From: Mycobacterium sp.
GTDB taxonomy: Bacteria > Actinomycetota > Actinomycetes > Mycobacteriales > Mycobacteriaceae
Length of the DNA stretch: 46,276 nt
Assembly: GCA_020438845.1 (NCBI GenBank)
Contig: JAGQTV010000026.1
Location: 1-46,276, forward strand
Reading direction: 5' to 3'
The position numbers were made by a program, and so were the translations under genes. Position 1 is the stretch's first letter; the number at the start of each line of letters is the position of its first letter. A model generated the notes under the pieces. It did not search any database. It saw nothing but the letters and a program-made list of their open reading frames with translations, and was not told the origin of the DNA. Positions 470-38,361 of the stretch are shown here, in pieces.

Positions 470-470
470 G

Positions 471-486: not shown

Positions 487-581
487 TCTGACCCTGCTTC
501 TTGCGGTGTGGGCGGTCATGCAGCAGTGTTAATCCCCGAGAGTGGTTTACCGACAGCTGAACATCGACAGAGGAAGGTCTC

Positions 582-1205: not shown

Positions 1206-1218
1206 CAGTCGCGAGAGG

Positions 1219-1250: not shown

Positions 1251-1391
1251 TTCGCATTTCAGGACGGCATTCCATTCTGGCCGATTAGCACTCCCGTCCT
1301 ATTGTGTGCCAGCCGTTATGTGCCCCATGCTGTTCCGCACCGGCCCGCTGGCGTGTCGCACTGGTTCCCTACGGAGTGTTGCGGAGGCGAG

Positions 1392-2789: not shown

Positions 2790-2852
2790 TCGGAACGCCG
2801 ACCACTCGGCCGTCCAAAACCTGAAAACGACACCACCGTCGACGTCTGTCAC
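2770..2852. repeat. imperfect direct repeat, copy 1 (espR 3' end)
   Basis: The espR 3' end and the bases after it recur about 205 bases downstream at 2975-3056. Over the first 49 bases only six positions differ; a one-base gap and more scattered changes follow, then a nearly matching end around GTCGACGTC. Copy 1 contains the espR stop codon and the left arm of its terminator. Confidence 0.75.
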
Positions 2853-2872
2853 GTCGACGGTGGTGTCGTTTT
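2824..2872 (+). terminator. espR terminator, perfect 21-bp stem
   Basis: The arms at 2824-2844 and 2852-2872 are perfectly complementary over 21 bases with a 7-base loop. The left arm begins AAAA and the right arm ends TTTT, so it works as an intrinsic terminator in both directions. It separates espR from the convergent membrane gene ending at 2991. Confidence 0.9.
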
Positions 2873-2974
2873 GGCTTCTGTGCGGGCTCCTCGAACATCT
2901 GCTGTGCACGCCGAACCGGCATGCTCGATCTGCTCAGCCAGCCCCGCAGGTGGTGCCCTTCACTCGCCTTCCGG

Positions 2975-3056
2975 CGGAACGCCCCGACCCCTAGTCGGAA
3001 CGTCGACCACTCGGCCGTTCAAACCTCAGGGCGACGACATTGTCGACGTCCGTTAC
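2975..3056. repeat. imperfect direct repeat, copy 2 (3' end of the convergent membrane gene)
   Basis: Second copy of the repeat at 2770-2852. Here it holds the stop codon and last 22 or so codons of the minus-strand membrane gene (C-terminal residues ...TDVDNVVALRF...). Read on the minus strand, copy 1 still gives TDVDGGVVFRF, so the two copies resemble each other as protein as well as DNA. Confidence 0.75.
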
Positions 3057-4220: not shown

Positions 4221-4708
4221 CCAAATGCCTCTCCGAGGCGAACCTGGGCAATCGAGGCACGGTCGCTACGCAGTCGGCCGAGGCGGTACAACAGCAAGGC
4301 CGCAAAATCTTCGGCTTCCTGCTCGATGTCTTCGCCGCCGGGGCCCATGCACCCGGTCCGCTGGCTGAGCATGTAACTGATCAGATCGTCGCTGGCGAAG
4401 TCGGTGGCACCGCGTGCCACCTCGGTCACGGGCATCCCGTCATGCCCCAATACCAGGTGGCCGAGTTCGTGAGCGAGCGTTCGGTCCGCGGTAGGTAGCC
4501 CGTGCTGGATCAGAAATTCATCGTGGTCGGCGTACTGGCGCCACTGACCGGAAACACCCGGGGGCAATTCGGCCATGCTGACGTCGATCGGACGGCCGCG
4601 GTCCTCTCCAACGGCCGCTACCAACCGCGTCAGCGAGACCTCGCCCTCACGGGGGGCAAGAACGAGGACCCCATTCACCGCTTTCGTCACACGTCGGCCT
4701 ACTGACAT
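4217..4708 (-). CDS. ImmA/IrrE-like zinc metallopeptidase
   Basis: A 163-residue protein with the gluzincin motif HELGHLVLGH at about residues 80-89: His80 and His84 as zinc ligands, Glu81 as the catalytic base. Glu residues near 130 (QEAEDFAALLLY) are candidates for the third ligand. In known ImmA and IrrE systems such peptidases cut or inactivate an XRE-type repressor, releasing its genes. The open frame begins at 4759, but ATG 4708 has a GAGGAGG site 7 bases upstream and is preferred. It overlaps the membrane gene by four bases. Whether its target is EspR, another XRE protein or something else cannot be told from sequence; the position next to espR is only suggestive. Peptidase-like fold fairly sure, activity inferred. 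Confidence 0.8.
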   Translation of the reverse strand: MSVGRRVTKAVNGVLVLAPREGEVSLTRLVAAVGEDRGRPIDVSMAELPPGVSGQWRQYADHDEFLIQHGLPTADRTLAHELGHLVLGHDGMPVTEVARGATDFASDDLISYMLSQRTGCMGPGGEDIEQEAEDFAALLLYRLGRLRSDRASIAQVRLGEAFG

Positions 4709-4755
4709 CTCACCGCCTCCTCGGAGCCGGGTCATTGTGAGTCGCGGGTATCGGG

Positions 4756-5481
4756 TCACTGCAGGAACCGCGTTCGCGCAGAGGTCGGGAAGAGGCCCGG
4801 CTTGGCCTGGCGGTAACCCATGAATGCGCCGATAGCCGTCAAACCCAGGAGCGTGACCAATCCGGGAACGACCAATGGATCGAACTGCGGCAGAGCGGCG
4901 TCACTCACGTTGGCGGGAAGGCCCAAACGCAATGACCGCGGAGTGAGAGCAATAGGCCGGTTCCGGTTGGGCTCCGGAGCCACCGCGTCCGCGGGGCTAC
5001 TCACCGGGCGGACGACCGGCGCCAGCACCGGTTCCACCGCAGCCGCAGCAGGACTGACGCTCGCGGGGACGGCCGCCGGCGGGACGGTGTCGGCCGCTGT
5101 CTCAGCAGCTTCCGGCTGCTCTCCGAATGTGGTAGTGGCGGTGTCCGACACCAATATTGTCGGCACCCGGTCGGCGGGCATTCCGAGTTTCGGTGCCGGG
5201 AGCGTTCTTCTTGCCGGCGTTGCGAGTCGGGCCGGATTGTCGCCTCCGGTTGCGCTGACCCTTGTCCGTCCTGACGGCTGTTGCCGACCCAACCCGGCCT
5301 GCGAACTCATGAAGCCTTGCTTGGAACTGTCGCCCGGGCGGCTGGCCCCGCTCTGCACACCCGGTCTCCCACCCGGTTCGGCCGACGCCGGCGCAGCGCC
5401 CAGAATTCCGGATCCGACGCTGAGCAAACCGGCGGCGACCAGCCAACTGGCCACCACGATATGCCCACGCGACCGCTTCAC
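4756..5481 (-). CDS. exported Ala/Pro-rich protein with C-terminal membrane anchor
   Basis: A 241-residue product from GTG 5481, chosen because GAGGAAGGG precedes it closely; the frame stays open far upstream, and ATG 5514 has no ribosome site. Residues 1-35 form a signal peptide (basic KRSRG, a hydrophobic stretch, then APASAEP). The middle is low-complexity Ala/Pro/Arg/Ser. Near the C-terminus, LVTLLGLTAIGAFMGY is a membrane segment followed by a basic tail, so the protein is probably held at the outer face of the membrane or in the wall. No enzyme motif is seen and I do not recognise a family. The ImmA-like gene lies 47 bases downstream, so co-transcription is possible. Confidence 0.7.
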   Translation of the reverse strand: MKRSRGHIVVASWLVAAGLLSVGSGILGAAPASAEPGGRPGVQSGASRPGDSSKQGFMSSQAGLGRQQPSGRTRVSATGGDNPARLATPARRTLPAPKLGMPADRVPTILVSDTATTTFGEQPEAAETAADTVPPAAVPASVSPAAAAVEPVLAPVVRPVSSPADAVAPEPNRNRPIALTPRSLRLGLPANVSDAALPQFDPLVVPGLVTLLGLTAIGAFMGYRQAKPGLFPTSARTRFLQ

Positions 5482-5655
5482 GAACCCTTCCTCAGAGGCA
5501 TCGGGCGCCGCCATCGGCGCCGGCGTTTTGCAGTTATTTAATAATTGTGGCATATCCGCAGGTGGTACGACTAGCACTAATAACAGGCGATAGTGTTTAG
5601 GCCACTGGTCCGGTAGCGCACTGCGCCCCGCCCCAACCCCCGGAAGGCGATATCG
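5482..5655. promoter_or_regulatory. divergent intergenic region with an AT-rich core
   Basis: It separates the minus-strand exported protein from the plus-strand Rv3850-like gene. Bases 5531-5553 are unusually AT-rich for this genome (the run includes TTATTTAATAATT), so promoters in both directions are likely, but I could not assign a confident -35/-10 pair. Confidence 0.4.
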
Positions 5656-6336
5656 ATGGGTCTGTTCAGCAAACGCAAGAGCCGTGCGACCAAGCGTGCC
5701 GAAGCTCGGGCTCTCAAGGCCCGGGCCAAGGTCGAGGCCAAGATGGAAGCAAAACTTGCTGCCAAGAACGAGGCCAAGCGCATCAAGGCAGCTGAGCGAT
5801 CCGAGAACAAAGCGATTAGGGCGGAACTCAAGGCGAAGCGGAATTCCGACCGCACCGCGGTCCGTGTCGCCGAGACCCAGTTGCGGACTGCCCGGGAGGG
5901 CAAGGTGCTCTCCCCCAGCCGGATTCGGCGCACGATGACGGCGTCGCGACTGCTGGCACCGGTACTGGTACCGGTGGTCTACCGGGCGGCGATGGCGGCC
6001 CGGGGGGTGATCGACGAGCGGCGCGCCGAGCGCCTCGGTGTCCCGGTCACCCGGTTGGGACAGTTCTCCGGCGAAGGCGGCCGACTGTCGGCGCGCATTT
6101 CCAGCGCGGAACACTCCCTGGAACTCATCACCTCCAACAATGCCAAGCCTGGCCACCAAGACGCCGAGACCAAGAAGTTCGTCGCTGCGATGACCGACCG
6201 TCTCGCTGCGTTGTCAGCGGGGGTGACAGCGGCAGAGAACCTGCCCGGCCCTCGTCGGCGAGCCGCCCACATATCGATAGGCGAACAGCTCGATGGCATC
6301 GAGGCCGATCTCATGGCGCGCCTCGGTGTTTTCTGA
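5656..6336 (+). CDS. conserved protein, Rv3850-like
   Basis: A 226-residue protein opening with MGLFSKRKSRATKRAEARA and then a long Lys/Ala/Glu/Arg-rich helical stretch to about residue 70, probably a charged single helix or coiled coil. A more conventional C-terminal part includes LLAPVLVPVVYRAAMAAR (about 97-114), a possible membrane-associating segment. It matches Rv3850 as I recall it, which in M. tuberculosis lies just after espR. Here the ImmA-like, membrane and exported genes sit between the two. Start ATG 5656 follows a GGAAGGCG site. The hns-like gene is about 100 bases downstream on the same strand. Function unknown; the basic helix near a nucleoid protein gene could suggest nucleic-acid or surface binding, but that is speculation. 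Confidence 0.82.
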   Translation: MGLFSKRKSRATKRAEARALKARAKVEAKMEAKLAAKNEAKRIKAAERSENKAIRAELKAKRNSDRTAVRVAETQLRTAREGKVLSPSRIRRTMTASRLLAPVLVPVVYRAAMAARGVIDERRAERLGVPVTRLGQFSGEGGRLSARISSAEHSLELITSNNAKPGHQDAETKKFVAAMTDRLAALSAGVTAAENLPGPRRRAAHISIGEQLDGIEADLMARLGVF

Positions 6337-6438
6337 CGACCTCGAAGAAGCGCGCTCCGCGGGGCCTCACACCGGCGTACCCCTGCACTGGCATGATTGG
6401 GCTGCCCGCTAACTCGAGCCGACAAAGGAGCGGTACCA

Positions 6439-6906
6439 GTGGCTGAGAACCAAGAACCCGCCAAGAAGGCACCGGCAAAGAAAGCCCCGGCCAAGAAGGC
6501 ACCGGCAAAGAAAGCCCCGGCCAAGAAGGCACCGGCAAAGAAGGCTCCCGTCAAGAAGGCTCCGGCAAAGAAGGCACCGATCAAAGCAACGCCGGCGCCG
6601 GCCGCACCCGTGAAGAAGGCGCCCCCCGCCAAGACGGTCGCCGAGAAGGCACCCGATACTCCAGCACTGGAGGCCGCAGCCGAAGCTCCCGCGCTCGAGG
6701 CTGCTCCGGACGCTCCCGCGCTCGAGGCAGCACCCGAGCATGCCGCATTGACCGCCGGAATTTCAGCGCCCCCGGCCGCCGGCGCCGAGCCCGTCGACCC
6801 TTCGGCGGTGCAAGATGATGCCGGAAAGGTCCGCCTCCCCGTCGCCGTCGGCCTGGCGGTCGCCAGCCTGCTGGCCGTGTTGATCCGTCGGCTCCGGCGA
6901 AGTTGA
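6439..6906 (+). CDS. hns: Hns-like membrane-anchored KAP-repeat protein (Rv3852-like)
   Basis: A 155-residue protein with three parts: Lys/Ala/Pro repeats (AKKAP) from about residue 6 to 70, resembling histone H1 tails; an acidic Ala/Glu/Pro middle with repeated PALEAAP motifs; and a C-terminal membrane helix (about 133-149) ending in RRLRRS. This is the layout of Rv3852, called hns in M. tuberculosis, which binds DNA and is membrane-linked. GTG 6439 follows AAGGAG by 8 bases and is preferred over the longer frame from 6397. The KAP region is encoded by 30-bp tandem repeats, so its length may vary between strains. The stop codon overlaps the TTG start of rraA, indicating an operon. Confidence 0.9.
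6461..6580 (+). repeat. 30-bp tandem repeat, 4 units, encoding the KAP tail
   Basis: Units at 6461-6490 and 6491-6520 are identical; those at 6521-6550 and 6551-6580 are progressively diverged. Each encodes ten residues of the Lys/Ala/Pro repeat, so gain or loss of a unit keeps the frame. Confidence 0.9.
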
Positions 6907-7391
6907 CCGTGGGCGTCACCTTCCGCCCGACCGCAGATCTCGTTGACGACATCGGGCCCGATGTGCGCAGTTGCGACGTCCAGTTCCGCCAGTTCGGGGG
7001 CCGGGCACAGTTCGCCGGGCCGATCGTCACGGTGCGCTGCTTCCAGGACAACGCGCTGCTGAAGTCAATCCTGTCCGAGCCCGGGGAAGGCCGCGTCCTG
7101 GTCATCGACGGCGACGCTTCCCTGCACACCGCATTGGTGGGTGACGTTATCGCCGAGTTAGGCCGTTCCAACGGCTGGTCCGGTCTGATCGTGCACGGCG
7201 CGATACGCGATGCGGCGACGCTGTCCACCCTCGGCATCGGTATCAAGGCTCTCGGGACCAACCCGCGCAAGAGCACCAAGACCGGCGCAGGCGATCGCGA
7301 TGTGGTGCTGCACATCGGCGGCGTCGATTTTATTCCGGGCGAAATCGCCTACAGCGACGACGACGGAATCGTGGTAGTCCCGGCCAGTTGA
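6903..7391 (+). CDS. rraA: RraA family protein (formerly annotated MenG)
   Basis: A 162-residue member of the RraA family. E. coli RraA inhibits RNase E; many family members are instead aldolase-like 4-hydroxy-4-methyl-2-oxoglutarate enzymes, and the old name MenG is misleading. Characteristic pieces are [13 protein letters not shown] near the start, [24 protein letters not shown] (shortened here: key residues Gly-Asp, Asn-Gly-Trp, Gly-Ala-Ile-Arg-Asp around residues 80-103) and [11 protein letters not shown] at the end. The length is normal. TTG 6903 overlaps the hns stop codon (TTGA); GTG 6909 is an alternative. The order hns-rraA matches Rv3852-Rv3853. Whether it controls RNase E in this organism is not shown by sequence. 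Confidence 0.92.
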
Positions 7392-7441
7392 GCAACCGCC
7401 CCCGTTGGACGGTGCCGGAACCTCCCGCCTAGTCTGTGCCC

Positions 7442-10063
7442 ATGCCCGAGCAGTACCCGCCGGCAAGGCCTGCCCTTGCCAGGATGGCCCTGTTCTGCCT
7501 GCTGGCCGGGGTTCTGACCGCGGCTCTGCTATTCCCTGTCGTCGCCGGCTTGGGCCTGGCGAGTAACCAAGCCTCGGAGTCGGTCACCCAGGGGTCGGCC
7601 AACGTCGTCGACGGGGAAATCCCGGCGGTGTCGACGATGGTCGACGCTGCGGGCAATCCGATTGCCTGGCTTTATGTGCAACGGCGGTTCGTAGTGCCGT
7701 CGGATCGCATCGCCGACACCATGAAGTTGGCCATCGTCTCGATAGAGGACAAACGCTTCGCCGCCCACAACGGCGTCGACGTGCAGGGCACTCTGACCGG
7801 TTTGGCAGGCTTCCTCAGGGGTGGCAGCGATACCCGTGGCGGGTCCACCATTGAGCAGCAGTACATCAAGAACTTCAACCTCCTGGTGAACGCCGAGACC
7901 GACGCCGAACGCCAGGCTGCCGTAGAGATCACGCCCACCCGGAAGTTACGGGAGATTCGGATGGCGTTGGCACTGGACAAGTCGCTGACCAAACCCGAAA
8001 TCCTCACCCGCTACCTGAACCTGGTGCCGTTCGGCAACGGCGCCTACGGGATTCAGGACGCGGCCAAGACCTATTTCGGAATCGACGCCGCTCAGCTCAA
8101 CTGGCAACAATCTGCGCTACTGGCCGGCATGGTGCAGTCGACCAGCGCGCTGAATCCATACACCAACCCGAAGGGCGCACTCGAACGCCGCAATCTGGTG
8201 CTGGACACCATGATCGAGAACCTGCCGCAGTACTCCGACGAGCTACGGGAGGCCCGGGAGCAACCGCTGGGAGTTCTGCCGCACCCGAATTCGCTGCCGC
8301 AGGGCTGCATAGCCGCCGGCGACCGCGCGTTCTTCTGTGAGTATGCGCTGGACTACCTGGCCAAGGCGGGCATCAGCAAGCAGGATGTCGCCCGCCACGG
8401 ATATCTGATCAAAACCACGCTCGATCCCAACGTCCAGAACCACGTCAAGGAGGCCATCAACACCGTCGCCAGTCCCACGCTCGACAGCGTCTCCAGCGTG
8501 ATGACCGTGATCCGGCCCGGGAAGGACGCACACCGGGTTCTGGCAATGGGCGACAACCGCAGTTATGGGCTCAAACTGGAGGCCGGCCAGACCGTTCAGC
8601 CCCAGCCCTTCACCCTCGTCGGTGACGGCGCCGGTTCGATCTTCAAGATCTTCACCAGCGCTGCGGCACTGGAGATGGGCATGGGCATCAATACGATGCT
8701 CGACGTTCCCCCTACCTTCCAGGCCACCGGCCTGGGCGAAAGCAACACCCCCGGTTGTCCGCCGAAGACGTGGTGCGTGAAGAACGCCGGCGGATACCGC
8801 AGCCCGTTGAGCATGACCGACGCTCTGGCCTTGTCGCCGAATACCGCCTTCGCGAAGCTGATTCAGCAGGTCGGCGTCGGGCGCACCGTAGACGTCGCTG
8901 TCCGACTGGGACTGCGCTCTTACGCCGAGCCCGGCTCCGCGAAGTCCTACGAACCGAAGAGCGACGAAAGCCTCGCCGACTACATCAAGCGCCAGAACAT
9001 CGGCTCCTTCACCCTCGGGCCGTTCCAGACCAACCCGGTGGAGTTGTCCAACGTCGCTGCCACGCTGGCCTCCGGTGGCATGTGGTGTCCGCCGTCACCC
9101 ATCGACAAGGTGCTCGACCGGCACGGCAAAGAGATCTCACTTTCCACCGCCAGTTGCGAACAGGCAGTCCCGGAAGGCCTGGCCAACAGCCTGAGCAACG
9201 CATTGTCCAAGGACACCACCATGGGTACCGCTGCAGCCGCTGCCGGCTCGGTGGGTTGGGGGCTGCCGATGTCCGGTAAAACCGGCACCACCGAGTCCCA
9301 CCGGTCCTCCGGCTTCCTGGGGTACACCAACCAGCTGGCCGCGGCCAGCTACGTCTTCGACGACTCTCCCAAGCCGGGAGCGCTGTGCGCCTTCCCGCTG
9401 CGGAAGTGCGGCGGCGCAGGCAATCTGTACGGCGGAACGTCGCCCGCTCAGACGTGGTTCTTGGCCATGAACCCGATTGCCACCAGCTTCGGGCCGGTGA
9501 CGATGCCTCCCACCGATCCCCGCTATGTCAACGGCGCCCCCGGCGTCGCCGTGCCACCCGTAACTGGCCTCAACCTCGATGCGGCCAAGAAACGCGTCCG
9601 GGATGCCGGATTCCTGGTTGCCGACGTGCCTACGCCGGTGTTCAGCCTGGCGTCGAAGGACTCCGTGGTGGGGACCACCCCTTCGGGTCAGGTTCTGCCG
9701 GGTTCGATCATCACCATCAACACCAGCAACGGCATTGCGCCTCCAGCTCCGCCGCCGGTGTACCAGGCTCCCCGTCCGCGCTACGACCCCGGCTATGACA
9801 GCAATTACGACAACGAGATTCCGCCGCCGCCCCCTGAGATGGCCCCCCCGCCCGAAGGGGTAACCGTAATCGAAATTCCGGGCCTGCCGCCGATCACCAT
9901 CCCGGCCATGCCCGGGCCACCGCCCCCACCGCCGCCTGCTCCGGAACCCCCGCCACCTCCCGCTCCGGAACCCCCTCCACCGCCGGCTTGGGAGCCACCG
10001 CCACCGCCGCCGGCCTTCGAGCCGCCACCGCCACCACCTGGTGACGTCCCACCGCCGCCGTAG
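7442..10063 (+). CDS. ponA2: bifunctional class A penicillin-binding protein, PonA2-type, with PASTA domain
   Basis: Polymerises and cross-links peptidoglycan at the outer face of the membrane. The 873 residues run in this order: one N-terminal membrane segment (about 14-42); GT51 transglycosylase with catalytic Glu102 in SIEDKRFAAHNG and GGSTIEQQ near 133-140; transpeptidase with Ser399-x-x-Lys402 (SIFK), SPN at 465-467 and KTG at 613-615; one PASTA repeat (about 702-763); and a tail of over 100 residues, mostly proline. It closely resembles M. tuberculosis PonA2 (Rv3682) as I recall it, but the location after rraA is unlike that locus, so it may be a PonA2 paralogue. ATG 7442 has only a weak ribosome site. 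The next gene begins 10 bases downstream. Confidence 0.92.
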   Translation: MPEQYPPARPALARMALFCLLAGVLTAALLFPVVAGLGLASNQASESVTQGSANVVDGEIPAVSTMVDAAGNPIAWLYVQRRFVVPSDRIADTMKLAIVSIEDKRFAAHNGVDVQGTLTGLAGFLRGGSDTRGGSTIEQQYIKNFNLLVNAETDAERQAAVEITPTRKLREIRMALALDKSLTKPEILTRYLNLVPFGNGAYGIQDAAKTYFGIDAAQLNWQQSALLAGMVQSTSALNPYTNPKGALERRNLVLDTMIENLPQYSDELREAREQPLGVLPHPNSLPQGCIAAGDRAFFCEYALDYLAKAGISKQDVARHGYLIKTTLDPNVQNHVKEAINTVASPTLDSVSSVMTVIRPGKDAHRVLAMGDNRSYGLKLEAGQTVQPQPFTLVGDGAGSIFKIFTSAAALEMGMGINTMLDVPPTFQATGLGESNTPGCPPKTWCVKNAGGYRSPLSMTDALALSPNTAFAKLIQQVGVGRTVDVAVRLGLRSYAEPGSAKSYEPKSDESLADYIKRQNIGSFTLGPFQTNPVELSNVAATLASGGMWCPPSPIDKVLDRHGKEISLSTASCEQAVPEGLANSLSNALSKDTTMGTAAAAAGSVGWGLPMSGKTGTTESHRSSGFLGYTNQLAAASYVFDDSPKPGALCAFPLRKCGGAGNLYGGTSPAQTWFLAMNPIATSFGPVTMPPTDPRYVNGAPGVAVPPVTGLNLDAAKKRVRDAGFLVADVPTPVFSLASKDSVVGTTPSGQVLPGSIITINTSNGIAPPAPPPVYQAPRPRYDPGYDSNYDNEIPPPPPEMAPPPEGVTVIEIPGLPPITIPAMPGPPPPPPPAPEPPPPPAPEPPPPPAWEPPPPPPAFEPPPPPPGDVPPPP

Positions 10064-29935: not shown

Positions 29936-30565
29936 TCACGATTCTTTCACGTGCGAGTACCAGATCCGGTCGGCGACCGCGACGACGTCGTCGGACATCG
30001 CAGTGGCCCGACGGTAGAGTTCGCGGCTGGCGATGACAACGGAAATCTCAGTGCGAAGCAGGAGTTCGCCGGTGGCCTGCCGGTAGATCCTTTCCAGCCT
30101 GCGCTGGGATTTCACCGCCTCATCGGCCGCTTCGGTGGCCGAGGTTCCCGACTCGTTGGACCCCAGACTCAGACAGTCGAATGCGGTTCGCAGATGCGCG
30201 ACTCCTTCGGCGAGCAGGGACGCCATTTCCGCGGTCGCCTTATCGGGCGGGAAGGCCATGGCCTCGGATTCCCGCACAGTGTCTTTGGCACCGTTCATCA
30301 CCCGGTCGAGGTCGCGCGACAGCTGGAAAAGGTCCTCCGGCGGCAGTGGTGTGGTGAAGGCTTCACTGACGGCATCGGCGAGATTTCGGCGCACCTGGTC
30401 GCACTCGTGCTCAGCGGCACGCACGTCATCCGCGCGCGCGGAATCCCCGTCCGCCCAAGCGGAGAAGGCCACCATCCCCCGGTCGGTGATCTCGGCTTGC
30501 TTCTGCAGCATGCCGATCACGTCGGGCGTCTCAGGGAGGAACCAGTGGCCCTTGCGATCACTCAT
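29936..30565 (-). CDS. DUF47/PhoU-like protein, partner of Pit
   Basis: A 209-residue helical PhoU-domain-like protein of the DUF47 family; members are usually encoded beside a Pit phosphate transporter and are thought to modulate it. Acidic metal-binding-type positions appear in the E-x-x-x-D patterns (HECDQVRRNLADAV; DLFQLSRDLDRVMNGAKDT). ATG 30565 overlaps the pit stop codon (ATGA) and follows GGAGAAG, so it is preferred to the upstream ATG 30580. The operon pit-DUF47 is clear. No membrane segment. Confidence 0.9.
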   Translation of the reverse strand: MSDRKGHWFLPETPDVIGMLQKQAEITDRGMVAFSAWADGDSARADDVRAAEHECDQVRRNLADAVSEAFTTPLPPEDLFQLSRDLDRVMNGAKDTVRESEAMAFPPDKATAEMASLLAEGVAHLRTAFDCLSLGSNESGTSATEAADEAVKSQRRLERIYRQATGELLLRTEISVVIASRELYRRATAMSDDVVAVADRIWYSHVKES

Positions 30566-31590
30566 ATCAGACTTCTCCATCCGAGCAGGACAACGACGGC
30601 CAGGACTGCGGCTGCCGGGATCGTGGTCAGCCAGGCAACTGCCATGTCACGCACGATCGTCCAGCGCACGTGGCGCCACCGGCGCCGTCCACCACCGATT
30701 CCCACAATCGACGATGCCACCACCTGCGTGGTGCTCACCGGCGCGCCGACCATTGAAGCCCCGAAAATCACTGCGGTGGAAGCGGTTTGGCTGGCCAAGG
30801 AGTCCAGTGGAGTGAGGCTGAATATGCGGCGGCCGATCGTCCTGACGATGCGCCAGCCGCCCAGGGCGGTGCCGAGGGTGAGCGCGAGTCCGGTTACGAC
30901 CTTGGCCCACAACGGCACCGTCATGGTTGTGGAGTGGCCGGAGGCCAGCAGCAGTGCCGCGATCACGCCCATCGATTTCTGCGCGTCATTCCCACCGTGG
31001 CTGAACGACAACCCGGCCGCCGCGATCCATCCGCCGCCCCGGACCGGCCCGTGCCAGCGGGTGGTCCACCGCCGGGAACCCAGGCGCAGGCAGCGCAGCA
31101 GCACGAACGCGAACAGGACACCCAGCGACGGCGAGATGAACAGCGCTACCAGGGAGCCGATCATCCCGGTGGGATGAAGACCCTCCAAGCCACCCCAGTG
31201 AACCGACTTCAGCCCGCCGTAGCCGGACAGGATGCCATCGGTGATCGCCGCGCCACCGAGCCCTCCGACCAGCGCGTGGCCCGATGACGACGGCAGGCCG
31301 AACCACCAGGTGAGCAGATTCCAGGCCGTCGCCCCGGCCAGACCCGCTCCCACGACGGGCACCATCTGGCCCTGCGGCACCGTGACTATGGTTCCGATCG
31401 TGTCGGCGACGGCCTCACCGAGCAGGACCGCACCCGCCATGTTGAACACTGCCGAAAGGACGACCGCTTGCCTTGGGGTGGCACCCCTCGTCGCGACCAA
31501 AGTGGCGATCGCGTTCGAGGCGTCGTGGAACCCATTGGTCAGCGCGAAAGCGAGCGCAAAGCCGATGGCGACAAGCAACCCGCCCTGCAT
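30562..31590 (-). CDS. pit: low-affinity inorganic phosphate transporter Pit
   Basis: A 342-residue Pit-family phosphate carrier with about ten membrane segments. Both PiT signatures are present: FALTNGFHDASNAIATLVAT near residue 20 (N-terminal half) and LSFSHGGNDAQKSMG in the second half, with PVSTTQVVASSIVG and LPSSSGHALVGG as the expected repeat pair. ATG 31590 is chosen for its GGGAGGGG ribosome site; the frame extends 12 codons further up. The DUF47 partner overlaps downstream. It would import phosphate with protons or as a metal complex. It lies next to the arsenic genes; arsenate enters through phosphate carriers, but the adjacency may be chance. Confidence 0.94.
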   Translation of the reverse strand: MQGGLLVAIGFALAFALTNGFHDASNAIATLVATRGATPRQAVVLSAVFNMAGAVLLGEAVADTIGTIVTVPQGQMVPVVGAGLAGATAWNLLTWWFGLPSSSGHALVGGLGGAAITDGILSGYGGLKSVHWGGLEGLHPTGMIGSLVALFISPSLGVLFAFVLLRCLRLGSRRWTTRWHGPVRGGGWIAAAGLSFSHGGNDAQKSMGVIAALLLASGHSTTMTVPLWAKVVTGLALTLGTALGGWRIVRTIGRRIFSLTPLDSLASQTASTAVIFGASMVGAPVSTTQVVASSIVGIGGGRRRWRHVRWTIVRDMAVAWLTTIPAAAVLAVVVLLGWRSLI

Positions 31591-31689
31591 ATGGCCCCTC
31601 CCCCGCGGTCTCGGTGAACTGCTCATGTCCGCGAGGTGAACATAACAAAAACGACCGCACTGGGCGCCGGTGTCGACCCGTGATGAGAC

Positions 31690-32049
31690 TCATGTGCAGC
31701 AGTTGGGGTCCAGGGCCGCGCACAGTGCTTGCAGGGCTTCGGGCCGAACCCTGTGGAAGACGTTCATCCCGCGCCTCTCCGACACCACCAAACCGGCTTT
31801 CCGAAGCTGGGTGAGATGGTGGCTGACGGTCGATTCAGTGAGCCCGAGTACAGAAGCCAAATGACCGGAACTCTCCTCGCCCGCAGCGGAACTGAATAGG
31901 TAGGACACAATCCTGACCCGCGCCGGGTCGGCCAAGGCCTTGAGGCGCAGTGCGATCTCGAGGGCGTCGTCGTCACCCATCGGGCCGGCGGCCACGGGGG
32001 CACAGCACACCGGGGAGGTCATGTCGATCACCGGCAGTGCCTTGGGCAT
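31690..32049 (-). CDS. arsR: ArsR/SmtB-family arsenic-responsive repressor
   Basis: A 119-residue winged-helix repressor with ALRLKALADPARVRIVSYL and the recognition helix LTESTVSHHLTQLRKAGLV. Cysteines are at 15, 16, 110, 117 and 118. Cys15-Cys16 correspond to the N-terminal pair used for As(III) sensing in Corynebacterium ArsR, but the usual Cys-rich ELCVCDL segment is replaced here by SGHLASVLG, so the third thiol is probably one of the C-terminal cysteines. It is divergent from the cadI-acr3-arsC genes, with an inverted repeat between, and probably represses them and itself until metal binds. Confidence 0.92.
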   Translation of the reverse strand: MPKALPVIDMTSPVCCAPVAAGPMGDDDALEIALRLKALADPARVRIVSYLFSSAAGEESSGHLASVLGLTESTVSHHLTQLRKAGLVVSERRGMNVFHRVRPEALQALCAALDPNCCT

Positions 32050-32070
32050 ACTTGCACTGTGCCAGATAGG

Positions 32071-32128
32071 TTGACATATATCAAAAAGGTAGGCATTCTG
32101 AACGTGTCATCGATTTCGATATATGTCA
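32071..32128. promoter_or_regulatory. divergent ars promoter and operator, inverted repeat
   Basis: TGACATATATC at 32072-32082 is repeated as its perfect reverse complement, GATATATGTCA, at 32118-32128. Each arm is also nearly palindromic in itself (TTGACATATATCAA, 12 of 14 positions symmetric), like ArsR/SmtB operators. TTGACA (32071-32076) with CATTCT 17 bases on (32094-32099) could be the rightward promoter, with its -35 inside the first operator, so bound ArsR would block it. Confidence 0.75.
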
Positions 32129-32149
32129 CAGTCCATGGAGGTCGATTCC

Positions 32150-32569
32150 GTGTCCCGCGTCCAACTCGCGCTCAATGTCGACAATCTCGACGCAGCAATT
32201 ACGTTCTACTCCAAGCTTTTTCACACCGAACCGGCCAAAGTGAAGCCGGGTTACGCCAACTTCGCCGTCGCGGACCCACCTCTCAAGCTCGTCCTGCTGG
32301 AGAATCCCGGCCACGGCGGCAGCATCAACCACCTGGGGGTGGAGGTGGGCTCCAGCGAGATCGTCCACGGAGAGATCGCCCGGCTGACCGAAGAGGGCAT
32401 GTTCACCGAAGAGGAAATCGGCACCACCTGTTGTTTCGCCACCCAGGACAAGGTGTGGGTGAGCGCCCCCGACGGTGAGCGCTGGGAGGTCTACACCGTG
32501 CTGGCAGATTCAGACACTTTCGGGGCGGCGCCGCAGCAGATCGACATCCAGCCAGGGTGTTGCCGGTGA
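32150..32569 (+). CDS. cadI: CadI/ArsI-type VOC protein, metal(loid)-inducible
   Basis: A 139-residue VOC-fold protein very like M. tuberculosis CadI (Rv2641), related to ArsI, the Fe(II)-dependent C-As lyase that cleaves methylarsenite and aromatic arsenicals. The vicinal pair Cys94-Cys95 (GTTCCFATQDKVWV) corresponds to the As(III)-binding cysteines of ArsI; His61 and Glu113 fit metal-ligand positions. The first ArsI ligand, His near residue 5, is Gln here (VQLALNV), as in CadI, so lyase activity is uncertain. It ends in another Cys pair. GTG 32150 follows GGAGG; an upstream ATG at 32123 lies in the operator. First gene of the rightward ars operon; its stop overlaps the acr3 start. Confidence 0.92.
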   Translation: MSRVQLALNVDNLDAAITFYSKLFHTEPAKVKPGYANFAVADPPLKLVLLENPGHGGSINHLGVEVGSSEIVHGEIARLTEEGMFTEEEIGTTCCFATQDKVWVSAPDGERWEVYTVLADSDTFGAAPQQIDIQPGCCR

Positions 32570-33696
32570 CGGCTCCCCAGCGCACCCAACACGAGGAGTC
32601 GCCGGCCGCACGGCTGTCGACCCTCGATCGCTTCCTGCCGGTGTGGATCGGTGCGGCAATGGGATTGGGGCTCGTGCTCGGGCGACTGGTTCCCGGCCTG
32701 GGGTCAGCCATCGGCGCGGTTGCCGTCGACGGTGTGTCCCTTCCGATCGCCATCGGCTTGTTGGTGATGATGTATCCGGTGTTGGCGAAGGTCCGCTACG
32801 ACCGGCTCGACACCGTCACCCGCGACCACCGGATGCTGCTGGCCTCGCTCTTTCTGGTGTGGGTCGTCGGACCGGCACTGATGTTCACGCTGGCCTGGGT
32901 TTTCCTGCCCGACCTGCCCGCATATCGCACCGGCATCATCATCGTCGGACTCGCACCCTGCATCGCGATGGTGATCATTTGGAATGATCTGGCCCGGGGG
33001 GACCGCGAGGCGGCCGCCGTCCTGGTCGCCATCAACTCAGTCATTCAGGTGCTGATCTTCGCCGCTCTCGGCTGGTTCTATCTGTCTGTGCTGCCGGGCT
33101 GGCTGGGGATGGACCGCAGCGAGCTGAATACCTCCCCGTGGCAAATCGCGAAGTCGGTGCTGATCTTCCTCGGCATTCCTCTGGTAGCCGGCTATCTGAC
33201 CCGCCGTTACGGCGAAAGGTCCAGGGGTCGTAAATGGTACGAATCCAGGTTCCTGCCGAGAATCGGCCCGTGGGCGCTCTACGGCCTGCTGTTCACGATC
33301 GTGATCCTCTTTGCCCTGCAAGGCGATCAGATCACCTCCAGGCCGCTTGACGTTGCGCGAATCGCCTTACCCTTGCTGGCCTATTTCGCGATCATGTGGA
33401 CCAGCGGCTACCTTGTTGGCGCTGGGCTCAAGCTGGGCTACCCGCGCACCACCACATTGGGGTTCACCGCGGCGGGCAACAATTTCGAACTGGCCATCGC
33501 TGTGGCGATCGCGACGTTCGGCGCCACCTCGGGACAGGCACTGGCCGGCGTGGTAGGCCCGCTGATCGAGGTTCCCGTTCTGGTGGGATTGGTGTACGTC
33601 TCGCTGGCGCTGCGCCGATACTTCCCTCAACAACGCCAATACTTCCCTCAACAACAGAGCCCCGACCAGCAGGATGGAGCAGCCGCCCATGGCTGA
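32566..33696 (+). CDS. acr3: Acr3-type arsenite efflux transporter
   Basis: A 376-residue, ten-helix arsenite permease of the Acr3 (ArsB) family that exports As(OH)3. Cys132 in LAPCIAMVIIWND and Glu308 in AAGNNFELAIAVAIA are the family residues for arsenite binding and transport. GTG 32566 overlaps the cadI stop codon (GTGA), so translation is probably coupled; the frame begins a few codons earlier at 32557. The tail, after about residue 350, is Gln/Pro-rich and contains a duplicated YFPQQ from a 21-bp tandem repeat. Overlaps arsC by 8 bases. Confidence 0.96.
   Translation: MTAPQRTQHEESPAARLSTLDRFLPVWIGAAMGLGLVLGRLVPGLGSAIGAVAVDGVSLPIAIGLLVMMYPVLAKVRYDRLDTVTRDHRMLLASLFLVWVVGPALMFTLAWVFLPDLPAYRTGIIIVGLAPCIAMVIIWNDLARGDREAAAVLVAINSVIQVLIFAALGWFYLSVLPGWLGMDRSELNTSPWQIAKSVLIFLGIPLVAGYLTRRYGERSRGRKWYESRFLPRIGPWALYGLLFTIVILFALQGDQITSRPLDVARIALPLLAYFAIMWTSGYLVGAGLKLGYPRTTTLGFTAAGNNFELAIAVAIATFGATSGQALAGVVGPLIEVPVLVGLVYVSLALRRYFPQQRQYFPQQQSPDQQDGAAAHG
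33618..33655 (+). repeat. 21-bp tandem duplication in the acr3 tail
   Basis: ATACTTCCCTCAACAAC occurs at 33618-33634 and 33639-33655, a period of 21 bases, encoding YFPQQ twice just after the last membrane segment of Acr3. In frame, so length changes would be tolerated. Confidence 0.85.
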
Positions 33697-34114
33697 ACAA
33701 CCCCCCGGGCACACTCCCAGCGTGTTGTTCGTCTGTGTGCACAACGCCGGCCGGTCGCAGATGGCCGCCGGTCTGCTCCACCACCTGGCCGGCGATCGCA
33801 TCGAAGTCCGCTCCGCCGGAACGCAACCCGCCGACCAGATCAACCCGATTGCGGTGTCAGCCATGGCAGAGCTCGGTATCGACATCACCGGGACGAACCC
33901 GAAAGTCCTCACCGGCGAGGCCGTGCAGACCAGTGACGTAGTCATCACCATGGGGTGCGGCGACACGTGCCCGTACTTCCCCGGCGTCTCCTACCGCGAC
34001 TGGAAGCTCGACGATCCCGCCGGACAACCGATCGAAGCGGTTCGCCCGATCCGCGACGAGATCGCCAACCGCGTCAGAGCACTGATCGCCGAGCTGATAC
34101 CCCAGGGCACGTGA
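33689..34114 (+). CDS. arsC: arsenate reductase ArsC (LMW phosphatase-like)
   Basis: A 141-residue protein of the low-molecular-weight tyrosine phosphatase fold that reduces arsenate to arsenite for export by Acr3. The P-loop CVHNAGRS is at residues 16-23, and Cys90 and Cys94 (MGCGDTCPYFP) are the resolving thiols, as in the thioredoxin-linked type; in actinobacteria mycothiol or mycoredoxin may serve instead. ATG 33689 follows GGAGC; the 5-codon longer start at 33674 has its ribosome site too close. It overlaps acr3 by 8 bases, and its stop codon overlaps the start of the next gene. Confidence 0.95.
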   Translation: MAEQPPGHTPSVLFVCVHNAGRSQMAAGLLHHLAGDRIEVRSAGTQPADQINPIAVSAMAELGIDITGTNPKVLTGEAVQTSDVVITMGCGDTCPYFPGVSYRDWKLDDPAGQPIEAVRPIRDEIANRVRALIAELIPQGT

Positions 34115-35463
34115 CAACGCGGTCCGCAGTCCCGCAAGACGCGGCATCGGTGTGGACTGCGCAACACTTTCCCGACGAGACGCACTGGTCGTTCGACCTC
34201 TCCCCCAGCGACCGCAACACGCTGATCGCTTACGCCCGAGGCGAACTCGATGCTAACTCGCTGGCTGGACACTTCGCTGGCGCTGTCGGGCAGTGGAGCG
34301 AATTGCTGACCCATGGGCCAGGTTTCGTTCGGGTGCGGCTGTTCCCCGTCGATTCACTGACCGAACTGCAGACTCAACGGGCATATCTGGGTCTGGGTAG
34401 CCTGCTCGGCCGGCCGGTTGGCCAAGACCGCGACGCGAACGTGATCACCCACATTCGCGACGAGCGCTTGGCAACGGTGCCCGGAGTGCGCAAGTATCGC
34501 ACCAACCTTAGGCAGGACTTCCACAGCGACGGATCAGATCTGGTCGGACTACTGTGTCTGCACCCGGCCAGCAGTGGCGGCGAGTCCAAGATCGCCTCTG
34601 CACATGCAGTCTACAACGAAATGCTCCGCCGCGCACCGAATCTCGTCGATGTCATGTACCAGCCGATGCCATGGGACCGCAACGACGAGCAGAGTTCCGG
34701 CGAACCGCCGTTCTTCGAACTACCGCCCATCATGGATATCGCCGACACTCCACGGTTGTTCTTCATCGCCTGGTACATCCGCGACTCGCAACGGCACCCG
34801 GAAGCCCCCCGGCTCACCGAGGATCAGCGTGCAGCGCTGGACCTCGTGGAGAACATTGCCAACGACCCGGCCTTCCACATCGAGATGCGGTTCCAGCCGG
34901 GTGATATCCAATTCCTCAACAACACCACCGTCCTGCACTCTCGCGAGGCGTACACCGACGAGGACGATCCCGCCCGCCGACGGCACCTGCTGCGGCTGTG
35001 GCTGAAGACAGACCGGGCAACCATCCACGAGCCACTCCGCGACGGAATACCCCGTCGGAATACGAAACCGTTTGTGCTGCAGCGCATTCACCACGCTGCG
35101 ATCATCTGCTCGGACTACGAACGCTCCAAGACGTTCTACACCCGGGTGCTAGGTCTGCGTGTGATCGCCGAGAACTACCGGGCACCGCGGAAGTCCTGGA
35201 AATTGGATCTCGGCCTGCCCGACGGTGGCCAGATCGAACTGTTCTCCTTTCCCCATCCGCCGGCCCGCCCCAGCCGTCCGGAGGCCCAGGGCCTCCGTCA
35301 CCTGGCATTCGCCGTGGACGACGTCCAGGCCTGGTCGGACCACCTGCGCCGCCAGGGCGTCTTCGTCGAGGAACTGCGCGTGGACGAATACACAGGCCGG
35401 CGCTTCACCTTTTTCAGCGACCCCGATGGGTTGCCGTTAGAGCTTTACGAACAGGGCCCTTAA
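34111..35463 (+). CDS. TauD/TfdA-type Fe(II)/2-oxoglutarate dioxygenase fused to a VOC domain
   Basis: A 450-residue two-domain protein, last gene of the ars operon. Residues about 15-310 look like a TauD-type dioxygenase: His138-x-Asp140 (QDFHSDGSDL) and distal His276 (VLHSREAY) as iron triad, Arg291 or Arg295 (RRHLLRLW) for 2-oxoglutarate. Residues about 322-448 form a YaeR/GloA2-like VOC domain with candidate ligands His328 (RIHHAAI), Glu376 (QIELFSF), His397 (LRHLAFAV) and Glu444 (LPLELYE). Both metal sites look complete. GTG 34111 overlaps the arsC stop codon (GTGA); the frame is open upstream inside arsC. Context suggests oxidation of an arsenic compound, perhaps an organoarsenical, but the operon place alone does not prove it. 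Ends at TTAA shared with the convergent gene. Confidence 0.88.
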   Translation: MTTRSAVPQDAASVWTAQHFPDETHWSFDLSPSDRNTLIAYARGELDANSLAGHFAGAVGQWSELLTHGPGFVRVRLFPVDSLTELQTQRAYLGLGSLLGRPVGQDRDANVITHIRDERLATVPGVRKYRTNLRQDFHSDGSDLVGLLCLHPASSGGESKIASAHAVYNEMLRRAPNLVDVMYQPMPWDRNDEQSSGEPPFFELPPIMDIADTPRLFFIAWYIRDSQRHPEAPRLTEDQRAALDLVENIANDPAFHIEMRFQPGDIQFLNNTTVLHSREAYTDEDDPARRRHLLRLWLKTDRATIHEPLRDGIPRRNTKPFVLQRIHHAAIICSDYERSKTFYTRVLGLRVIAENYRAPRKSWKLDLGLPDGGQIELFSFPHPPARPSRPEAQGLRHLAFAVDDVQAWSDHLRRQGVFVEELRVDEYTGRRFTFFSDPDGLPLELYEQGP

Positions 35464-36725
35464 ACCGCCAACCAGCTCAGAGCGGCCGCAACCAGCGCCG
35501 TGGTGCCGGTGTCGAGAGTCGGCTGGATAACCGGGGCGAAGTGCGGCGAGTGGTTGACCGGGATGTCGCTGGCGAGCCGGCCGGCCGCTTCGGCCTTCGA
35601 GTACACGTCCGGATCGGCGCCACCGAAGAGCCAGTAGGTATACGGCGCTTCCACTCCCCGGGCAATGTCGCTGAAATCTTCGCTGCCCAGCACCTTGGGG
35701 GGAACGACGACCCGGTCGCCGAAAACTCCGGCGAAAGCGTTATCCACGCGCGCCGTGACGTCGAGATCGTTGTCGGTCAACGGCGCCCGGTCGAGAAATT
35801 CGAAGTCGGGGTCGCGCGGCGAGTTCGACGCCGCACATTCGGCGGTGACGATCCGACGGATAGCCGCCAAAATCGCCTCCCGCGTCGACTCGCTATAGCT
35901 GCGGATGTTGATCTGAAGTTCGGCCTGATCAGCAATGATGTTGGCTTTGGTTCCCGCCGCGATCCTGCCCACCGTGACCACGGCCGGCTCGCCGGCCTCG
36001 ATCTCCCGCGAGACGATCGTCTGCAGCCTCAGCACGATCGCCGCGGCAAGCACTATCGGGTCGACGGTGGCGTGCGGCATCGAAGCGTGTCCGCCCCTGC
36101 CGTAGAGGGTCACCCGGATGCTGTCGGAGGCAGCGAACGCCGGACCGGCCTTCGTAGCGACGCAACCTGCGGGCAGGGGCCCGACGTGTTGACCGAGTGC
36201 GACGTCGACCGGAGGGATCAGGTCGGCAAGTCCGTCGTCAACCATGCCTTGTGCGCCGTCCACGGTCTCCTCAGCCGGCTGGAATACCGCGACAAGCGTG
36301 CCACGCCAATGCTGTTCGCCTGTCGCGAGTAAGTGTGCCGCGCCCAGGAGGCAAGCCGTATGCATGTCATGACCACAGGCGTGCGCAACCCCGACTGGGC
36401 TCCCCCCGGCTGCCGGTGTGGCTGTCACCTTGCTGGCATAGGGCAGTCCGGTGGCCTCCCGGACCGGCAGGGCATCCATGTCGGCCCGCAACAGGACCGT
36501 GGGACCGTCCCCGTTGCTGAAGACTCCGACCACGCCGGTGCCGCCGACCCCGGTGATGACCTCGAGTCCGGACAAGCGCAACCGCTCGGCCACGATTCCG
36601 GCCGTCCGGTGTTCCTGATGGGAGAGTTCGGGGTTCTGGTGCAGATCGCGGTAAATGTCTTCCTGCCATTGGCAGACCTCGCCGACCGAAGCCATCAACG
36701 CCGAAACCGTCTCGGGAATGGTCAT
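35460..36725 (-). CDS. M20-family amidohydrolase (N-acyl amino acid/hippurate hydrolase type)
   Basis: A 421-residue dinuclear metallohydrolase of the M20D/AmhX-HipO type that cleaves amide bonds of N-acylated amino acids or related amides. Visible motifs: ADMDALPV, HACGHDMHTACLLGAA (metal His and Asp), FQPAEETVDGAQ (catalytic/metal Glu pair), a dimerisation-type middle with GGHASMPH, and LGSEDFSDIA plus HSPHFAP near the end. ATG 36725 follows AAGGAC; the frame begins at 36746 without a site. It converges on the ars fusion gene with stop codons overlapping in TTAA, so no hairpin lies between. Substrate unknown. Confidence 0.93.
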   Translation of the reverse strand: MTIPETVSALMASVGEVCQWQEDIYRDLHQNPELSHQEHRTAGIVAERLRLSGLEVITGVGGTGVVGVFSNGDGPTVLLRADMDALPVREATGLPYASKVTATPAAGGSPVGVAHACGHDMHTACLLGAAHLLATGEQHWRGTLVAVFQPAEETVDGAQGMVDDGLADLIPPVDVALGQHVGPLPAGCVATKAGPAFAASDSIRVTLYGRGGHASMPHATVDPIVLAAAIVLRLQTIVSREIEAGEPAVVTVGRIAAGTKANIIADQAELQINIRSYSESTREAILAAIRRIVTAECAASNSPRDPDFEFLDRAPLTDNDLDVTARVDNAFAGVFGDRVVVPPKVLGSEDFSDIARGVEAPYTYWLFGGADPDVYSKAEAAGRLASDIPVNHSPHFAPVIQPTLDTGTTALVAAALSWLAV

Positions 36726-36825
36726 TTGAGAAGTCCTTCCATTCAAGAGGGGGTGATCAGAACCCTATCGGCCTGAAGCGCCAACGGCAGTAGTGTCGAT
36801 CCTGTCCGGAGAAAGCGAGGTCCTC

Positions 36826-38361
36826 GTGACGAGCACCGACCCCCAACAGCCACGACCGCACCGAAATCTGAGCAGACGGGTTTTCCTCGCGGGCAGCTTG
36901 GCCCTGAGCGCCGGGGCAACCTTGACAGCCTGTGGACGTTCGGGCACGACAGCAGCCACGCTGACCACGCAGCCGACCGCGCCCAATCCGGCCTTGGACG
37001 AGGCGATCAAGGCCGCCGAGGCTGCGCGACCGCACACCGGCCGCACGGTCACCGCCACCCTGAACCCGGGCCCGGTCACCGTCGACCTCGGCGGCAAGGT
37101 GGCCAAGACGCACGGCTTCACTGATTCGGTTCCAGGTCCGCTGATCCGTGCCAACATCGGGGACGAAGTCGTCGTGTCGGTGAACAACAAGCTCGGCAAA
37201 CCAACCTCGGTTCACTGGCATGGCATCGCCTTACAGAACCCCATGGACGGCGTGATGCCCGCCACCCCGAACATCCCCGCCGATCAATCGTTCACCTACC
37301 GGTTCTCCGTGCCGAACGCAGGAACATATTGGGCACACCCGCATGTCGGGGTCGAATTGGACACCGGACTCTATCTCCCGTTAATCGTCGATGATCCGAA
37401 GGCGCCCGGCGACTATGACGCCGAATGGATCGTGATGGTCGACGACTGGACCGACGGGATAGGCAAGTCACCGCAGCAGATCCTCGACGACTTGGAGAAG
37501 GGCGGGATGGGCGCCATGGCGTCGATGGGGTCCATGGGCGGTTCGGAGGGCAGCAAGCTGCTGGGCGGGGATGCCGGAGACGTGACCTATCCCTACTACG
37601 TCGTCAACGGCCGGATTCCCGAAGCACCAACCACGTTCAGCGCCAGACCCGGTCAGCGCATCCGGCTTCGGATCATCAATTCCGGTTCCGACACCGCCTT
37701 CCGGGTGGCCCTCGCCGGACACCGAATGACGGTCACCCACACCGACGGCTATCCCGTCGTACCAACCGAGGTCGACGCGGTGCTGCTGGGAATGGCCGAG
37801 CGCTACGACGTGATCGTGACCGCACGGGACGGAGTGTTCCCGCTTGTCGCGATGGCTGAAGGCAAGAACGCAGTCGCGCGCGCACTGTTGGTCACCGGAG
37901 TCGGCAGCTCCCCGCCACCAGATTTTCGGCCTGCCGAACTCAACGGGACAGTCGGGATCGTCGAGATGTTCACCGCCACCCCGGAAGCTCAATTGGCGTT
38001 CACAAAGCCCGACAACGAGATGCAGGCCGAGCTGACCGCATCCGACACCGCCTATCAGTGGGGCATCAACGGTCCCTATCCGGACAACAAGCCGTTCACC
38101 GTCCGGCAAGGTCAGCAGGCGACGGTCACCTTCACCAACAAGACCACGATGTGGCACCCGATGCACCTGCACGGCCACACATTCGCGTTAGTCAAGCCCG
38201 ACGGCAGCCTCGGGGCCCGCAAGGACACCGTGATCGTCACTCCCAACCAATCGGTCAAGATTGCGATCCTCGCCGACAACCCCGGCTACTGGCCACTGCA
38301 CTGCCACAACACCTACCACGCCGAGGCCGGCATGTTCTCCACCTTCGACTACCTCACCTGA
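36826..38361 (+). CDS. mmcO: Tat/lipobox multicopper oxidase, MmcO-like
   Basis: A 511-residue multicopper oxidase like Rv0846c (MmcO), which oxidises Cu(I) and protects against copper. The N-terminus has a Tat signal (SRRVFLAG, about residues 17-24) and a lipobox LTAC with Cys36, so it is probably a lipoprotein at the outer face of the membrane. The copper ligands are intact: HWHG, WAHPHVG, HPMHLHGHTF and HCHNTYHAEAGM (type 1 axial Met). A Gly/Met-rich loop (KGGMGAMASMGSMGG) may gather copper. GTG 36826 has a GAGG site; GTG 36793 is possible but poorer. It overlaps the convergent permease gene by 13 bases. Confidence 0.94.
   Translation: MTSTDPQQPRPHRNLSRRVFLAGSLALSAGATLTACGRSGTTAATLTTQPTAPNPALDEAIKAAEAARPHTGRTVTATLNPGPVTVDLGGKVAKTHGFTDSVPGPLIRANIGDEVVVSVNNKLGKPTSVHWHGIALQNPMDGVMPATPNIPADQSFTYRFSVPNAGTYWAHPHVGVELDTGLYLPLIVDDPKAPGDYDAEWIVMVDDWTDGIGKSPQQILDDLEKGGMGAMASMGSMGGSEGSKLLGGDAGDVTYPYYVVNGRIPEAPTTFSARPGQRIRLRIINSGSDTAFRVALAGHRMTVTHTDGYPVVPTEVDAVLLGMAERYDVIVTARDGVFPLVAMAEGKNAVARALLVTGVGSSPPPDFRPAELNGTVGIVEMFTATPEAQLAFTKPDNEMQAELTASDTAYQWGINGPYPDNKPFTVRQGQQATVTFTNKTTMWHPMHLHGHTFALVKPDGSLGARKDTVIVTPNQSVKIAILADNPGYWPLHCHNTYHAEAGMFSTFDYLT

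Follow-up and report, generated by a model that had tools for sequence, protein, structure and literature searches.

Which part of arsenic metabolism, if any, is served by a protein that joins a TauD-type Fe(II)/2-oxoglutarate (2OG) oxygenase to a vicinal oxygen chelate (VOC) domain, and that is encoded within a mycobacterial arsenic (ars) operon? The question is raised by a stretch of 46,276 nucleotides from Mycobacterium sp. (assembly GCA_020438845.1, contig JAGQTV010000026.1, positions 1 to 46,276), hereafter the window, in which such a fusion is the final gene of the set cadI-acr3-arsC-fusion, divergent from an arsR of the Rv2640c family. Comparison with related genomes indicates that the arsenic link of the oxygenase half is not chance, that the oxygenase by itself is what recurs with ars genes, and that its fused form is a rare add-on. 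We consider it very probable that this is an arsenic-regulated oxygenase belonging to the ars system. The fuller reading, namely that the fusion is an accessory enzyme of mycobacterial ars operons, in which an ArsR-controlled Fe(II)/2OG oxygenase with an acquired YaeR domain acts on an arsonate-type organoarsenical, is given a probability of about 0.44.

The oxygenase half and its neighbourhood

The fusion gene (Table 1) is intact and present as a single copy in its genome. Its oxygenase domain scores 116.1 bits against the Pfam TauD model (cut-off 27), residues 325-445 score 98 bits against Pfam Glyoxalase (PF00903, cut-off 20.6), and the VOC domain also exceeds the NCBIfam equivalog cut-off for SMU1112c/YaeR (NF050075, 192.5 vs. 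140 bits). Alignment A2, which includes the window and in which identity falls to about 27%, shows no substitution of H138, D140, H276 or R291 in any of its 30 rows; by analogy, we take the first three to be the HxD...H iron triad and the last to be the 2OG-binding arginine. In the VOC half, H328, H397 and E444 are present in all six other VOC rows of alignment A4, compared column by column, and inspection of the alignment gives E376 as the fourth ligand; that these are metal ligands of the GloA/YaeR type is our assumption, made by analogy to GloA. A preliminary description of the locus had named both domains, the iron and 2OG residues (placing the arginine near 291-295), four apparent VOC metal ligands, and a GTG start within the arsC stop codon that couples the gene to arsC, and in all of this it is borne out. 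The same GTGA overlap recurs in another locus (L143), whose oxygenase has no VOC domain.

We searched 396 genomes of the genus, an even sample of a larger group, at a threshold of E 1e-50, and 30 of them match the fusion protein: 21 through the oxygenase half (66-100% identity), eight through the VOC half alone and one through an oxygenase paralogue (38%). The fusion itself is found in two of the 396, the window's own genome and G371 (same contig as L001/L136), where it is full-length, has the same architecture and is 79% identical to that of the window. The stand-alone orthologues examined have their C-termini in or near the stretch that forms the linker of the fusion. The ratio of nonsynonymous to synonymous substitution rates (dN/dS) between the two fusions is about 0.10 in the oxygenase core, about 0.12 in the VOC domain, 0.32 in residues 1-60 and 0.35 in the linker, all rough values since dS is near 1. 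A fusion produced by chance or by faulty assembly is ruled out by the second genome and by the low dN/dS in both halves.

Wider samples (397 genomes at the level of the order, 394 of the class and 346 of the phylum; overlapping, window included, threshold E 1e-60) contained no fusion beyond that of the window's own genome; the relatives found outside the genus, two in the order (57% identity, G617; 42%, G436) and one in the phylum (44%, G1221), are all unfused. None of 90 plasmid records with a match covers 80% of the query, the best match being a 56% identical oxygenase on Rhodococcus ruber pYYL1.1 that adjoins a methyltransferase and an aldo/keto reductase, and the single match to a viral contig is to the VOC half alone. 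With two occurrences in the genus sample and none added by the wider ones, the notion of a widespread ars enzyme is ruled out for the fusion, and the possibility raised by the preliminary description, that the fused form would be met repeatedly in ars operons, must be given up; what recurs is the oxygenase alone.

To see what accompanies the oxygenase, 9.5-14 kb were surveyed around each of the other 20 orthologues (counts of 21 include the window). An arsR 53-86% identical to that of the window lies within 2.1 kb of the oxygenase in 17 of the 21, and cadI lies within 1.6 kb in 11. Ten of the 20 others have cadI within 1.5 kb (G371, G006, G227, G071, G144, G252, G130, G228, G020 and G419); every one of these ten has an arsR of the kind and at the distance just given, nine have Acr3 and eight ArsC, each within 2 kb. 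The order of the genes varies, from cadI-oxygenase-arsR-acr3 through cadI-acr3-arsC-oxygenase to divergent arrangements, and the first of these was also met in M. gordonae CTRI 14-8773 (L004), found by a separate search and outside the counts. In six genomes (G074, G034, G263, G297, G237 and G148) an arsR that is 56-58% identical lies 30-55 bases upstream of the oxygenase, on the same strand; the arsR genes of the window and of G034 alone were scored against the Rv2640c model itself. Since cadI is present in one or two copies per genome in 19 of the 21 orthologue genomes (23 copies in the other 20), simple arithmetic from copy number predicts cadI adjacency for about 0.03 of 20 neighbours. As a control, 14 distinct loci of TauD paralogues or distant homologues (27-56% identical), seven of them covered for no more than about 1.5 kb to either side, showed no ars genes.

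Shared regulation is suggested by a palindrome, the pattern of which, TYGAYATATRTCRA, was derived by reading the sequence upstream of the genes at ten loci and in the window. In 18 of the 21 orthologue loci, and in none of seven controls, an exact copy precedes the oxygenase by 0.27-2.04 kb; G013, which has no nearby ars genes, carries the site, and G150, G174 and G372 have none at the oxygenase. The 4.53-Mb genome of the window contains exactly one exact site, vs. 0.03 predicted from base composition. Fifteen of the 20 relatives were scanned genome-wide, giving 20 sites, of which 12 are at oxygenase loci, six at other arsR-cadI loci and two at neither; 13 of the 15 have one to three sites per genome, G150 and G174 have none, and the reversed pattern, used as a control, gave zero sites in any of them. 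Most simply, the palindrome is a putative binding site of the window's type of ArsR, and it could serve as a simple sequence handle for mapping genes under this ArsR type in mycobacteria. Two sites have no match to window-type ars proteins nearby (G034 C1 near 584885; G228 C50 near 57988).

Candidate substrates

When the oxygenase profile was compared with the PDB, the best matches were FrbJ (5eqn, 1e-68) and the hydroxylase 7n7v (1.4e-65), with gamma-butyrobetaine dioxygenase (2e-8) and TmpA (3.5e-6) following at far weaker scores; a single-sequence search placed 7n7v first and FrbJ second. We take FrbJ to be the Fe/2OG phosphonate hydroxylase of the FR-900098 pathway; for 7n7v, an open-licence literature look-up found no paper. 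The alignment with FrbJ is nearly full-length and brings together the regions of the HxD motif, of the second His and of the Arg as well as an LLCL stretch, whereas the aligned chain has no VOC domain and, judging from the alignment, FrbJ differs at the mycobacterial R74, D106, R107, K128 and H165. Eleven charged or polar positions (E23, R74, D106, R107, K128, H165, N191, R215, D225, H256 and E279) are conserved in 17 mycobacterial-group rows and different in five paralogues, and are candidates for substrate binding; a twelfth such position, R310, falls where four of the five paralogue rows are gapped. TmpA and gamma-butyrobetaine dioxygenase are likewise TauD/TfdA-type oxygenases, but the oxygenase of the window is far under the family cut-offs, scoring 37.8 of 400, 24.1 of 414.75 and 31.1 of 268.3 bits against the TmpA, gamma-butyrobetaine dioxygenase and trimethyllysine dioxygenase equivalogs, respectively. 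TmpA hydroxylates the carbon beside a phosphonate (PMC9296572).

Because the closest solved relatives include FrbJ, and arsonate is the arsenic analogue of phosphonate and sulfonate, we favour an arsonate-type organoarsenical as the presumed substrate, an assignment made by analogy. In TauD, hydroxylation of the carbon next to the sulfonate of taurine sets sulfite free, and in like fashion the oxygenase would hydroxylate the carbon adjoining arsenic in a pentavalent, arsonate-type organoarsenical. The resulting alpha-hydroxyarsonate would collapse to an aldehyde and As(III), the released As(III) would be exported by Acr3, other organoarsenicals would be dealt with by CadI/ArsI, and the fused glyoxalase-I-like VOC domain would dispose of the aldehyde or of its thiol adduct. 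A pentavalent substrate is preferred over a thiol-bound trivalent one because the protein is without any Cys pair, the whole fusion having only two cysteines, Cys 149 and Cys 333. Thus, of the two-step attack on an organic or thiol-bound arsenic compound suggested by the preliminary description, two steps on an organoarsenical may be retained, a thiol-bound trivalent arsenical appears less likely, and an ArsI-like character of the VOC domain is not upheld. We offer the organoarsenical mechanism for the oxygenase tentatively, with the odds somewhat against it.

If the oxygenase does act in this way, an ArsR-controlled Fe/2OG oxygenase beside ArsI/CadI would bring another class of enzyme into arsenic biology, and would be a candidate for degrading pentavalent organoarsenicals such as herbicides, feed additives and natural arsonates. 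More generally, the recurrence of its relatives beside arsenic genes points to an unrecognised step in the bacterial handling of arsenic compounds. In its most specific form the proposal is that of an arsonate alpha-dealkylase, which would open pentavalent organoarsenicals to As(III) and an aldehyde, complement the cysteine-based ArsI, and in one lineage be fused to an aldehyde-removing glyoxalase-type domain. This version is unlikely, its odds being lowered because some ArsI proteins are credited with action on pentavalent arsenicals too (PMC6514093, PMC6205960).

The same reports on ArsI also weigh against an arsonate-directed accessory enzyme as such, since the niche would not be empty and a separate enzyme would not obviously be needed, and they are joined by several other observations. 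The substrate does not follow from membership in a TauD-like family. The 56-57% identical homologues, on the Rhodococcus plasmid and in G617, have no ars genes nearby, and neither have four of the 21 orthologues (G150, G013, G174 and G372) in the 9.5-14 kb examined; the contig of G013 stops 1.5 kb upstream of the gene. In six of the 17 loci with an arsR, those in which it directly precedes the oxygenase, neither cadI nor acr3 nor arsC lies within 3 kb, and on a 20-row tree the label of ars or no-ars neighbourhood requires at least five changes. For the loci that supplied it the palindrome pattern is no blind test, but the genome-wide counts are a fair one. Finally, the oxygenase is uncommon (21 of 396 genomes), whereas cadI is present in 120 of 148, and one copy, that of G419 (L155 6638-7536), has broken reading frames, intact copies being found elsewhere.

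One may therefore consider alternative explanations. The best of them, although doubtful, is that an arsenic-induced oxygenase acts on a compound without arsenic, such as a sulfonate, phosphonate, lipid or thiol metabolite, and thereby frees phosphorus or sulfur or repairs arsenic damage. The solved relatives do include phosphonate and betaine enzymes, some orthologues are without ars neighbours, as listed above, and there are phosphate genes close by, namely a phosphate-transporter-family gene (PF01384) beside arsR in the window and PstS between two arsR genes in G263. Nevertheless, the frequent pairing of the oxygenase with arsR and the operator-like site, in six genomes as a bare arsR-oxygenase pair that has no further core ars gene within 3 kb, fits an arsenic substrate at least equally well. 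A passenger gene, carried along and transcribed with ars islands while playing no part in arsenic handling, is quite improbable: its scarcity relative to cadI and the broken copy in G419 would suit such a gene, but several gene orders (cadI-oxygenase, arsC-oxygenase and arsR-oxygenase) share one operator-like site, and dN/dS between the two fusions is low.

The oxygenase is a recurrent, apparently unreported ars accessory gene, seen here in a rare fused form, each part of which comes from a known family. Among the titles and abstract openings listed from the open-licence literature, several of the lists being capped, none presents a TauD-type oxygenase as a member of the ars genes, nor the present fusion, which is weak evidence of novelty; TauD is absent from the main texts of PMC6514093 and PMC6205960, and oxoglutarate from that of PMC6205960. 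Known ars fusions are Acr3-ArsC in mycobacteria, ArsR-ArsC and AqpS-ArsC (PMC6514093, PMC6205960), and the present protein resembles them in being a fusion inside an ars gene set.

Origin of the fused VOC domain

The fused VOC domain resembles YaeR/SMU1112c (PDB 2p25, 3l7t) in lying over the equivalog cut-off and in having all four metal ligands, and differs from it in that YaeR is a stand-alone protein in the other loci seen. It is below the NCBIfam cut-offs for glyoxalase I (GloA; 36.9 of 120 and 28.4 of 165 bits), and among the 19 NCBIfam families hit at E 0.01 there is no ArsI/CadI (NF041414) match; PHROGs gave a single weak match, of unknown function, to this half of the protein. In a VOC tree of 85 rows and 128 columns, few for so many rows, the two fused domains group with six stand-alone mycobacterial YaeR proteins in a set of eight rows, with a support of 91 in the Shimodaira-Hasegawa-like approximate likelihood ratio test (SH-aLRT; not starred), and one further mycobacterial YaeR row (L162) falls outside this set. 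The two fused oxygenases also group together (bootstrap 85, SH-aLRT 95, not starred). A single capture of a mycobacterial YaeR by the oxygenase gene is probably the simplest history. Import of the VOC domain from Proteobacteria is not favoured: most VOC-matching database loci are proteobacterial, but the tree groups the fused domains with mycobacterial rows.

By the evidence of gene neighbourhoods, the YaeR VOC half is not itself an ars gene, because its stand-alone relatives are near ars genes in only one of seven mycobacterial loci (seven of eight were fetched, and four contigs are under 5 kb), and none of 76 YaeR loci from other bacteria has a match to the window's ars proteins. The arsenic link drawn by the preliminary description for the whole protein therefore divides in two, since homologues are mostly beside ars genes and share an operator-like site in the case of the oxygenase, and are mostly away from them in the case of the VOC domain. 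The exceptional mycobacterial locus is that of G234 (L161 260-5306), where a full ars operon is found 2.3 kb from a stand-alone YaeR VOC gene, the two being convergent and on opposite strands. Comparison of the stand-alone orthologue with the fusion offers a natural way to ask what the YaeR domain adds.

ArsI, the enzyme to which the cited arsenic papers ascribe C-As cleavage, binds trivalent organoarsenicals via a Cys pair (PMC12607644). That the fused domain is a second ArsI-like C-As lyase, so that both domains attack one organoarsenical in sequence, is very improbable, for although the domain shares the VOC fold with ArsI and the operon context would suit such a role, it fits the YaeR and not the ArsI/CadI model, has no vicinal Cys pair, bears no convincing resemblance to the adjacent CadI (E 0.034 in one comparison) and has the stand-alone relatives just described; an origin as a duplicate of ArsI is ruled out on the first three of these grounds.

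The ars operon of the window and minor observations

In contrast to the fused domain, the operon's own CadI has the residues of ArsI. It aligns to T. curvata ArsI (5c4p) with E 1.9e-42, and retains Q14, H70, E122, C103, C104 and K110, the iron, Cys-pair and Lys residues, whose roles are as given in PMC12607644. Judged from homologues, the true cadI start is probably at 32135 or 32150; the start listed in Table 1 overlaps the second operator-like site. A scan of 31600-36900 gave no promoter-like sites (0.9 expected) and two terminator-like sites (3.1 expected), none of them behind the fusion.

Table 1. Coordinates of the fusion gene, its parts and the neighbouring ars features in the window
Feature	Position	Strand	Remarks
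TauD-YaeR fusion gene, 450 aa	34111..35463	+	GTG start 34111 to stop 35463
TauD/TfdA Fe(II)/2OG oxygenase domain, residues 61-297 (H138, D140, H276, R291)	34291..35001	+	PF02668
Linker, residues 301-322	35011..35076	+	stand-alone orthologues terminate in or near this stretch
YaeR/SMU1112c-type VOC domain, residues 323-447 (H328, E376, H397, E444)	35077..35451	+	
GTGA overlap, fusion start and arsC stop	34111..34114	+	GTG 34111-34113, TGA 34112-34114
arsC-like low-molecular-weight arsenate reductase	33674..34114	+	PF01451; best NCBIfam TIGR02689, 95.5 bits, under cut-off 157.6
acr3 arsenite efflux transporter	32557..33696	+	TIGR00832, 440 bits vs. cut-off 283
cadI/arsI VOC metalloenzyme	32123..32569	+	NF041414, 211 bits
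arsR, Rv2640c family, divergent	31690..32049	-	NF041413, 207 bits; CC pairs N- and C-terminal
Operator-like palindrome TTGACATATATCAA	32071..32084	.	sole exact pattern match in 4.53-Mb genome; between arsR and cadI
Second operator-like site	32116..32129	.	one mismatch, inverted vs. first

Directly past arsR, and on its strand, the phosphate-transporter-family gene is accompanied by a DUF47 gene (PF01865; both within 29936-31626 of the window). The same two genes lie beyond arsR in G371, and there may be some interplay of arsenate and phosphate. In that second fusion genome (L001), acr3 and arsC are missing between cadI and the fusion, and the fusion gene is immediately followed by one for a pentameric ligand-gated ion-channel-like protein (L001 5888-6997; PF02931, 29.8 bits).

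Near the arsR-oxygenase pair of G263 there is an ArsO (527 bits vs. cut-off 425), together with an ArsK-like transporter and an ArsO-like flavoprotein that score 170 and 59 bits (cut-offs 400 and 425, respectively). These last two, which score below the curated ArsK and ArsO cut-offs, adjoin each other and an arsR-like gene (L146 1613-4630), the transporter being of the major facilitator superfamily. Homologues of the transporter and flavoprotein, clustered by BLAST, are also found near the arsR-oxygenase pair in G034, G297, G237 and G148, and the set of ArsO-like flavoprotein, ArsK-like transporter and arsR-like gene in G263 and its relatives may be a further ars module.

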